Position numbers and translations under genes: made by a program. This document shows, piece by piece, positions 32,309-35,341 of a stretch of DNA of 64,000 nucleotides (position 1 is its first letter; each line of letters starts with the position of its first letter). This DNA comes from Bacteroidaceae bacterium (GTDB taxonomy: Bacteria; Bacteroidota; Bacteroidia; Bacteroidales; Bacteroidaceae): positions 37,107 to 101,106 of the forward strand of contig JAILPK010000025.1 in assembly GCA_024699495.1 (NCBI GenBank), in the 5' to 3' direction. Under the pieces are notes generated by a model that saw only the letters and a program-made list of their open reading frames with translations, did not search any database and was not told where the DNA came from.

Positions 32309-33517
32309 ATGCATATTGTCTCTTTTATTATATCGTTGGTTTCGTTCATGGCGTTAAGCATATTAGATGCTTTTGCTTTTGAGCCACAGTCAGGAATACC
32401 TGAAAGCGGCGACTCGCTGGCCGTGCGGGATTCTGTTTCGGCAAGCGCTTCTCTAACAGCAGATTCAGTCACGATTTCTCCCAAGCCTTTCAAAAGAGCT
32501 TTGAGTAAGGTAGGCAATTTTTTTTCGCAAGCCCTGAAGACCTTCAACGATTTCGACTCTACGTATGTGTTACCGATAGAATATAATTTTACTGCGATGT
32601 TGCAGGGTACACAGAACTATGAATTCTATTACATGCAGCAAAAGCCGTATCAGGTGTCGTTCGCCCAAAATCCTGACTTCCGCCTTGGCCCTTATTTAGG
32701 GTGGAGCTTCATCTTCCTCGGTTATACATTCGATGTGTCGCGGATAGGCAAAGGCGCATCCAGAGACTCACGCTTTGACCTCTCTCTCTACACCTCAATG
32801 GTGGGAATAGATTTTTTCTACCGGCGCACAGGCAATGATTTTAAAATCCGAAAAATAGCCGGTTGGGGAGACGACACGGCAGACCTAATCGGGACGAAAA
32901 GTGACTATATCAGCACCAGTATCCGCGGGCTTGATGTCTATTATGTGTTTAATCACCGCAGATTCTCCCTGCCTGCAGTATATAACCAGGGAAAGATGCA
33001 GAAGCGTTCTGCCGGTTCGTGGTTGTGCGGAGCCAATATTACAGGTCACGATATAAAATTTGATGTCGCCGCTCTGCCGGAAGAACTTTATGCCCAAGAT
33101 GAGGATGATAATAATAATTTCTGGGCCTTGGAGCGCGTTAATTATATAGATTACAGCGTCAATTTCGGATATGCTTACAACTGGGTTCCGCGCCGCAACT
33201 GGTGTCTCGGAATACAGGTGTTGCCAGAGTTGGGTTACAAACGTATAACGACAAAAACCATCATGGTCGATGACAACATGGAAGAGGACCGTTACGAGAA
33301 CAACATCATGAACAAACTGGACGAGGTCTTCCGCCGTCGTGGTAATCTAAATATAAATATCAAGGGCCGTGCTGGTATCGTATATAACAACCAGCGTTGG
33401 TTTACAGGTATCTATGGCGTAATCAACAGCTATAATTTCCGCCGTGGAGACCGCATATTCAGAGACACTTTTGGAACAATAAACATATATGTGGGATTCT
33501 TCTTTCAACACAAATAA
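32309..33517 (+). CDS. DUF4421 domain-containing protein
   Basis: 402 aa; SWSFIFLGYTFDV, FFYRRTGNDFKIRK, RRFSLPAVYNQGKMQKRSAGSWLCG pattern. Confidence 0.75.
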   Translation: MHIVSFIISLVSFMALSILDAFAFEPQSGIPESGDSLAVRDSVSASASLTADSVTISPKPFKRALSKVGNFFSQALKTFNDFDSTYVLPIEYNFTAMLQGTQNYEFYYMQQKPYQVSFAQNPDFRLGPYLGWSFIFLGYTFDVSRIGKGASRDSRFDLSLYTSMVGIDFFYRRTGNDFKIRKIAGWGDDTADLIGTKSDYISTSIRGLDVYYVFNHRRFSLPAVYNQGKMQKRSAGSWLCGANITGHDIKFDVAALPEELYAQDEDDNNNFWALERVNYIDYSVNFGYAYNWVPRRNWCLGIQVLPELGYKRITTKTIMVDDNMEEDRYENNIMNKLDEVFRRRGNLNINIKGRAGIVYNNQRWFTGIYGVINSYNFRRGDRIFRDTFGTINIYVGFFFQHK

Positions 33518-33521
33518 ATCG

Positions 33522-34343
33522 ATGTTAGGTCAGTATATCAAGAGCATTGAGATAGATTCTCTGTGGCGTGGAACGCGCCATATCAGATGGGAGTTGCGCC
33601 CCGGTGTAAATGTCCTCTCGGGCATCAACGGTGTGGGTAAGAGCACCATACTCAGCAAGACCATTAAGTTTCTTGCGGGCCGCAAAGAGGATTTGGGAAG
33701 AGATCTTGCGCGGCTCGGCGTTCACCTCACTTTCGAGCCGGAAGAGGCCGATACCGTGAGATATGACGTTATCAGAGGCATTGACCGCCCGCTGGTAAGC
33801 GCGGACATGCTCAGTCGTATCAGCGACACGCGGATGTCAACAGAGTTGGATTTCCAGCTCTATCAGTTACAGCGCAAATATCTCGACTATCAGGTGAACC
33901 AAAGCAACCGCATCGTTGCCCTCTTCACTGCTGCCTCCCCTGATGCCCACGAGAAAGCAGCTGCCATAGCTGGCGAAAAGACCCGTTTCTTTGATCTGGT
34001 TGACGATCTCTTCGCTTCCACCCAGAAGACTATAGACCGCACAGCTAACGAGCTGTTCTTCAATCATCTCGGAGAGCGTATCCCACCTTATGTCCTATCG
34101 TCGGGCGAGAAACAGATGCTTATAATCCTGCTTACCGTGCTCATTGAGAACCGCGAGCCGTATGTGTTGTTGATGGATGAGCCGGAAATCAGTCTTCATG
34201 TGGAATGGCAACAGAGGCTGCTGCAGCTGATTACCGAGCTGAACCCTTCTGTCCAGGTGATTCTCACCACCCACTCTCCGGCTGTGATAATGAATGGATG
34301 GATGGATTGTGTAACAGATGTTGAGGATATTATTATCGGATGA
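33522..34343 (+). CDS. AAA/ABC-type ATPase, PARIS AriA-like partner
   Basis: Walker A GINGVGKST, signature LSSGEKQML, Walker B YVLLMDEPEISLH, switch LTTHSPAVI; start MLGQYIKS preferred over 33489 (which would overlap DUF4421). Confidence 0.85.
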   Translation: MLGQYIKSIEIDSLWRGTRHIRWELRPGVNVLSGINGVGKSTILSKTIKFLAGRKEDLGRDLARLGVHLTFEPEEADTVRYDVIRGIDRPLVSADMLSRISDTRMSTELDFQLYQLQRKYLDYQVNQSNRIVALFTAASPDAHEKAAAIAGEKTRFFDLVDDLFASTQKTIDRTANELFFNHLGERIPPYVLSSGEKQMLIILLTVLIENREPYVLLMDEPEISLHVEWQQRLLQLITELNPSVQVILTTHSPAVIMNGWMDCVTDVEDIIIG

Positions 34344-35341
34344 GACGCCTGAATGATAATCTGAACAACGCGTATGTGGAGGCGGCTAACCGTCTCCGCC
34401 CTTCCCGCAGACGTCGGCGTATTGTTGCATACGTGGAGAGTTTTGATGACATTTTTTTCTGGCGTACAGTCCTTGACGAGTTCGAGAACGAGAGCCTGTA
34501 TTTTGAAATCCAACTGCCTTCGCGCCGTTCGCTACAAAAAGGAAAGAAGGCTGCCTTGATGAACCTTCTGCACACCACTCAACTGGGCAGCAGTATGATT
34601 GCCTGTGTCGATGCTGATTATGACTGGATTCTGCGTGACACCACAGAGACGTCACGTTTCATCAACAGTTCTCCGTTCGTTCTCCATACACGTGTCTATG
34701 CCATAGAAAACTTCCAATGCTATGCCCCTTCATTGCATCAGGCTGTGGTGCAGGCAACACTCAACGACCGTCCGACTATCGAATTCGAATCCTTCCTGAG
34801 CCAATACAGCATTATTGTGTGGCCGCTTTTCGTTTGGAATATATGGGCATACCGTGCTGACCGGTATTCCGGCTTCACCATGACGGATTTCTGTGGTTTT
34901 GTTTCATTCCGTGATGTGAATATCCATCACCCCGAGCAGACTTTAGAGCAGTTGCGTAGGCGTGTAAACCAGAAGATTTCGTGGATGCAGCGTAAGCACC
35001 CGGAGGCAAAAAACGGCCCGACGAGCTATTCGGCAGTGCGTGATGATTTACTTTCCATGGGGCTCACCCCGGAAACAACCTATCTGTTTATTCAGGGGCA
35101 CACTCTCTTCGAAAATGTAGTAATGCCACTTCTCTCGCCAATCTGCAATATGCTGCGCAGAGAACGCGAGCGCGAGATCCAGAGACTTGCATGCCACTCC
35201 ACTCAACGCCAGAACGAGCTCTCATCCTATCAGCACAGTCAAATGCCAATAGAACTTGTGCTGCGTCGTAATATTTATTTCAAGGATGCCCCCATGTACC
35301 AGCAGATAAGAGACAACATCACGAAGATAATAAATATGTAA
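34340..35341 (+). CDS. DUF4435 domain-containing protein (Toprim-like; PARIS AriB-like)
   Basis: VAYVESFDDIFFWRTVLDEFE and MIACVDADYDWIL (E ... DxD); ATGA overlap with ATPase gene. Confidence 0.8.
   Translation: MRRLNDNLNNAYVEAANRLRPSRRRRRIVAYVESFDDIFFWRTVLDEFENESLYFEIQLPSRRSLQKGKKAALMNLLHTTQLGSSMIACVDADYDWILRDTTETSRFINSSPFVLHTRVYAIENFQCYAPSLHQAVVQATLNDRPTIEFESFLSQYSIIVWPLFVWNIWAYRADRYSGFTMTDFCGFVSFRDVNIHHPEQTLEQLRRRVNQKISWMQRKHPEAKNGPTSYSAVRDDLLSMGLTPETTYLFIQGHTLFENVVMPLLSPICNMLRREREREIQRLACHSTQRQNELSSYQHSQMPIELVLRRNIYFKDAPMYQQIRDNITKIINM

Follow-up and report, generated by a model that had tools for sequence, protein, structure and literature searches.

PARIS is a two-gene anti-phage system in which a hexamer of the ATPase AriA sequesters the effector AriB until a trigger appears. 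The trigger is an anti-restriction protein or another protein of the phage (Ocr, Arn, Ptr), and AriB of Escherichia coli cuts tRNA Lys-UUU and Thr-UGU in the anticodon stem. Genes of anti-phage systems are usually patchy in their distribution and are usually treated as accessory, coming and going. RNase M5 belongs to the Toprim RNases and has a role in maturation. The active site of AriB is reported to resemble that of RNase M5, and the E. coli protein holds tRNA through lysines K60/K64 (PMC12409363). Once released, the E. coli effector acts as a tRNase that halts translation (PMC12409363; PMC11455837), and deletion of either gene of the pair is not toxic (PMC9122126). PARIS overall was found in 5.2% of genomes, and its published detection rule asks for a score above 32 for AAA_15 or above 27 for AAA_21, together with a score above 27 for DUF4435 (PMC9122126). 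Septu and the retron-associated PtuA, Gabija GajA and the OLD nucleases contain a related ABC ATPase core; in Septu, however, the partner is the HNH protein PtuB, and Gabija and OLD join the Toprim domain to the ATPase in one chain.

Here, we analysed a window of 64,000 nucleotides from a Bacteroidaceae genome (contig JAILPK010000025.1), in which a sequence-only reading had proposed a shorter, possibly divergent chromosomal version of PARIS.

Gene pair and family assignment

Both open reading frames were found on the + strand where the sequence-only reading had placed them, with the motifs that it quoted and the overlap at ATGA (Table 1). The length of AriA is counted from the conserved start; an alternative upstream ATG at 33489 gives a protein of 284 aa. 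In the window, the ATGA at 34340-34343 makes a 4 bp overlap between the two genes. This overlap is not conserved: a gap of -4 was observed in 4 of about 150 related pairs, the majority of which are separated by about 0-60 bp.

Table 1. Features of the AriA-AriB locus in window coordinates, with conservation counted over about 140 family loci (AriA 139, AriB 140).
Feature	Coordinates	Strand	Basis or conservation
AriA-like ABC/AAA ATPase, compact sensor/guard subunit, 273 aa	33522..34343	+	Pfam, PADLOC, AF2/Foldseek
Walker A GINGVGKST, AriA residues 34-42	33621..33647	+	K40 in 138/139
AriA helical hairpin H108-136/H142-167, repeatedly lost in other genera	33843..34022	+	AF2 model; hairpin-less alleles
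ABC signature LSSGEKQ, AriA residues 192-198	34095..34115	+	S193, G195, E196, Q198 in 139/139
Walker B and catalytic Glu LLMDEPE, AriA residues 216-222	34167..34187	+	D219 and E220 in 139/139
Switch histidine H251 of TTHSPA, AriA	34272..34274	+	139/139
AriB-like DUF4435 protein, Toprim-type nuclease, effector, 333 aa	34340..35341	+	Pfam, PADLOC, AF2/Foldseek
Toprim glutamate E33 of YVES, AriB	34436..34438	+	140/140 in family, 13/14 outside
Basic KGKK stretch, AriB residues 67-70	34538..34549	+	G68 and K69 in 140/140
Toprim acids DADYD, AriB D91, D93 and D95	34610..34624	+	140/140 in family

The ATPase matched Pfam AAA_21 (E = 4e-22, 80.1 bits) and AAA_15 (65.4 bits), and the downstream protein matched DUF4435 (E = 7.3e-44, 150.7 bits, residues 26-276). 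In PADLOC, AriA was recognised by model PDLC04164, which has 253 positions, with an E-value of 8.5e-56 across residues 2-271, and AriB by the AriB model with 5.4e-58; the PADLOC models were also matched by all the members of our family alignments (38/38 for AriA and 26/26 for AriB). The ATPase score, the DUF4435 score and the adjacency of the two genes all agree with the published PARIS rule. Neither window protein matched any HNH family of Pfam or PADLOC and the partner is a DUF4435 protein, unlike in Septu, while ATPase and Toprim are encoded by separate genes and not in one polypeptide as in Gabija and OLD. The assignment of the pair to AriA and AriB is thus borne out by profile and, as described below, by fold searches. 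The pair is PARIS-like, a variant of a known protein family, and what is surprising is its core status rather than the family to which it belongs.

The gene order is that of the two-gene PARIS of E. coli B185, where the ATPase gene also lies directly 5' of the gene of the DUF4435 Toprim nuclease. The description of the locus as shorter holds with respect to AriA of E. coli, which has 464 aa in the PDB as compared to 273 aa here, but it is not a distinction in this group, where short AriAs are usual, as shown by the 253-aa PADLOC model and by sporadic PARIS loci of other Bacteroidales, whose AriA often has 245-281 aa. The short PADLOC models (PDLC04164/PDLC04165 and PDLC02983), which cover AriA over nearly its full length and match every sampled family member, are annotation only, and no member of this compact group with a tested phenotype was found in the searchable papers.

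Structural models and conserved residues

AlphaFold2 models of AriA and AriB, built from alignments of the window proteins with those of related loci, had mean pLDDT values of 86.9 and 89.0, respectively, and were compared with the PDB by Foldseek. The top nine matches of the AriA model were all AriA chains (best E 7.6e-11). The AriB model gave a single match above noise, 8ux9_A, which is AriB of the PARIS complex (E = 8.2e-3, probability 1.00, TM-scores 0.44/0.47), followed by a match with an E-value of 1.6. The best solved-structure matches of both proteins are AriA and AriB. Considering that the TM-scores with respect to the solved proteins were moderate (0.40-0.61), they support the fold family and not its details. 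The models support a Toprim-type fold for AriB, and its sequence keeps the catalytic Glu and Asp of the E. coli protein.

At the sequence level, AriB is so little identical to the E. coli protein that sequence searches of the PDB do not find it: neither phmmer nor a profile of 26 sequences matched window AriB to solved AriB, and a Klebsiella homologue failed to bridge the two. Since the fold search alone linked them, E. coli residue numbers cannot be mapped onto AriB of the window. The KGKK stretch may possibly be the counterpart of K60/K64, with a putative role in holding tRNA, and its invariant G68 and K69 are only suggestive of tRNA cleavage.

For AriA, an AriA profile paired residues 7-54 with residues 5-50 of the E. 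coli protein, and residues 191-267 with its residues 365-439. About 137 residues separate the N-terminal from the signature part in the window protein, as compared to about 315 in the E. coli one, which indicates that the E. coli insertion has lost about 180 of its residues here and that a short helical hairpin takes their place. Because most of this insertion is missing, the surface that it offers to the trigger may be missing as well, and the same trigger should not be assumed here.

Distribution in the Bacteroidaceae and beyond

AriB was found in 285 of 301 family genomes, belonging to 28 of 30 genera, and AriA in 281 of 301; in the genus of the window, AriB was present in 32 of 37 genomes. 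RpoB, used as a yardstick in the same search, was detected in 254 of 301 genomes, a lower total for which breakage of this long gene at contig ends is probably responsible. The genomes are a sample and mostly metagenome-assembled; an artefact of incomplete genomes was discarded, since among those at least 90% complete AriA and AriB were each found in 161 of 168, as compared to 162 of 168 for RpoB. The two genes are usually single-copy, although some genomes gave second matches. In the reference collection, the named relatives belong to Bacteroides, Phocaeicola, Prevotella, Paraprevotella and Alloprevotella, which points to the GTDB Bacteroidaceae as the family sampled.

In other families of the order, a single-sequence search returned about 7%, and the more sensitive DUF4435 profile 36 of 196 genomes (18%), as compared to about 95% in the Bacteroidaceae. 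These sporadic loci are AriA-AriB pairs that share the catalytic residues (13/14 for AriB), whereas their AriB proteins are mostly 22-37% identical to that of the window. Many of them are open frames of about 520-545 codons, a length that would apparently correspond to AriAB fusions.

The sequence-only reading implied an occasional chromosomal defence system, a view that finds no support here, considering that the pair is nearly universal, vertically inherited and usually single-copy in the family. The patchy, mobile distribution that is typical of PARIS, although not part of its definition, was not observed (285/301, with trees congruent with rpoB). The same reading had regarded strict universal conservation with a housekeeping phenotype as evidence against itself: conservation is indeed nearly universal, but it is not strict, the pair being jointly absent from some genomes.

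In the open literature we found no paper that describes PARIS as core or vertically inherited in Bacteroidaceae. For Bacteroides strain jmh43, a published analysis lists PARIS, as called by DefenseFinder, among systems for which transcription was reported (PMC12135933), and therefore the annotation itself is not new. The main new fact is that the PARIS-like pair is part of the core genome across the family.

Inheritance, genomic context and loss

AriA directly adjoins AriB in 150 of 153 loci. Trees built from 40 genomes of 13 genera were compared with that of rpoB: AriB had 25 of 37 splits in common with it and AriA 22, with label-permuted means of 0.24 and 0.31, and strongly supported conflicts were limited to one for AriB and none for AriA. 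Spearman correlations of the distances with those of rpoB were 0.73 for AriB and 0.67 for AriA, values that were reached in 0 of 500 permutations. The descent of both genes is thus largely vertical. In close pairs, dN/dS was about 0.003-0.13 for both genes, showing that both proteins are maintained.

The flanking genes vary by lineage and are nevertheless housekeeping or metabolic (trkA, dxs, a Mur-ligase/alanine racemase gene, dnaA, an amidase gene, rplS); no regulatory partner is conserved next to the pair across the loci examined. Carriage by mobile elements was considered and rejected: no copy was found in phage records or in IMG/VR, the latter by a pattern scan that reaches close relatives only, and two close matches fell on plasmid-labelled records, from B. 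finegoldii and P. massiliensis. The former record carries the chromosome-like genes meaB and alpha-2-macroglobulin; the latter has no listed genes at that place.

AriA and AriB are jointly absent from 15 genomes, including three single-contig and other near-complete ones, and the genomes without them contain no DUF4435 gene of any kind. The pair is dispensable despite its conservation.

According to Pfam, the neighbouring genes in the window are ordinary and encode a GFO/IDH oxidoreductase, a DUF4421 protein, a xanthine/uracil permease and a TSCPD protein. The DUF4421 gene (32309-33517, +; Pfam 1.4e-85) stops a few bp 5' of AriA and may be co-transcribed with it in this genome. It was rejected as a third component, given that it adjoins AriA in the window's own genome only and the other examined loci have other neighbours. 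An SF1 helicase with AAA_11/AAA_12 domains (Upf1-like) was observed close to AriAB, a few genes away at most, in 19 of 80 loci from many genera (L081, L093, L097, L118, L132, L150 and others), a proximity that may represent old synteny or a functional link. A 175-aa protein recurs immediately 5' of AriA in 19 loci (for example L094:2900-3427, +) and had no Pfam match at a threshold of 1e-10. The window also contains tandem tRNA-Lys(CTT) genes (2431-2504 and 2543-2616, +); the target of E. coli AriB is tRNA-Lys(UUU), and we claim no link between the two.

Variation of the AriA hairpin

Some genomes, from at least four genera, encode an AriA of 221-246 aa in which the hairpin is mostly or partly gone (L022, L024, L234-L243, L252-L262). 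The AriB next to these hairpin-less proteins is otherwise normal and groups with its own genus or nearest neighbours. When the hairpin columns were left out of the trees, the hairpin state changed three times on the AriA tree and four times on the AriB tree. A single origin followed by exchange of the hairpin-less form was rejected: the AriA tree unites the forms of genera g1 and g179 (support 97/94) and places those of g154 and g170 elsewhere, so that at least three changes are needed. The union of g1 and g179 is itself doubtful owing to long branches. Three of the hairpin-less branches measure 1.2-2.0 changes per column, which suggests altered or relaxed sensing, and recurrent loss together with fast change of the hairpin beside constant catalytic cores would suit a sensor with a variable trigger-facing part. 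Genus g157 (L263-L265) contains a divergent pair: its AriA has 358 aa, its AriB shares only about 30% identity with that of the window, and the pair has probably replaced the core locus.

Discussion

For this locus we established what the two proteins are, how they are predicted to fold, that their catalytic residues are invariant, that the genes are obligatorily paired and lost together, and that they descend vertically under purifying selection. The protein evidence makes a PARIS-like mechanism the most likely one. We therefore favour, with a probability of about 0.6, a compact two-gene PARIS-type locus that is fixed and vertically inherited in the Bacteroidaceae chromosome and acts as a standing core abortive-infection guard, cutting tRNA or another essential RNA upon a phage trigger. 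By analogy with E. coli, the AriA ATPase scaffold would hold the AriB Toprim nuclease inactive, and a trigger would cause ATP-loaded AriA to let AriB go. Freed AriB would then dimerise and cut tRNA or another essential RNA, so that growth stops. Sequestration, release and RNA cleavage are all drawn from the relatives, and the usual trigger is taken to be a phage protein commonly met by Bacteroidaceae. Phage-triggered growth arrest is the likeliest role of the pair.

Near-universality, usually as a single copy, vertical descent and housekeeping neighbours count against a guard, being unusual for an anti-phage system. The loss of most of the E. coli AriA insertion and the moderate TM-scores weigh on the same side. 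It is conceivable, and we say so tentatively, that an ancestor of the Bacteroidaceae domesticated a PARIS-type pair for core RNA quality control or stress arrest, distinct from or added to defence, and that the sensor hairpin was then repeatedly discarded. In a stricter form, which we consider rather unlikely, the pair was recruited as a housekeeping nuclease for processing, quality control or repair of RNA (or DNA) and the defence role is gone. The RpoB-like distribution (RpoB 254/301, AriB 285/301, AriA 281/301), the vertical trees with very low dN/dS, flanks such as dnaA, dxs, trkA, rplS and the amidase gene in place of defence genes, and the likeness of the AriB active site to RNase M5 (PMC12409363) would all fit such a function. 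It is harder to reconcile with the disappearance of the pair from at least three single-contig and other near-complete genomes without a DUF4435 substitute, and with the immune role of the nearest characterised relatives; moreover, keeping the full AriA core and repeatedly losing the hairpin while the nuclease stays would be odd for a fixed processing machine.

Release of AriB might instead answer starvation, DNA damage or other host stress, so that the pair would work as a toxin-antitoxin-like switch leading to dormancy, instead of or besides defence. A translation-stopping tRNase as the E. coli effector (PMC12409363; PMC11455837) is compatible with dormancy, and joint presence, joint loss and stable core inheritance fit an addiction-like pair. 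Yet deletion of either E. coli gene is not toxic (PMC9122126), which argues against a classical addiction module, and no regulatory partner is conserved next to the pair; we regard such a switch as unlikely. That an ATPase gene and a DUF4435 frame are merely adjacent, as a chance look-alike or a decaying, non-functional relic, is extremely improbable. Only the low identity of the two sequences to AriA and AriB of E. coli speaks for it, and the conservation data refute it: catalytic residues are invariant, dN/dS is far below 1 and AriA stands beside AriB in 150 of 153 loci. The Pfam and PADLOC E-values and the orthologous pairs in hundreds of genomes likewise rule out a chance resemblance. A fixed core immune guard and a domesticated function are thus both live readings, between which the evidence is not decisive, and we prefer the guard.

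A PARIS-type pair whose presence across a dominant family of gut bacteria about equals that of RpoB, and which is under strong purifying selection, represents either a rare case in which abortive infection has become permanently fixed or a defence module that now serves cell physiology. When PARIS is called automatically in Bacteroides and Prevotella, this core pair is counted as variable defence. AriAs with and without the hairpin form a natural series that provides a means to map what the sensor senses.
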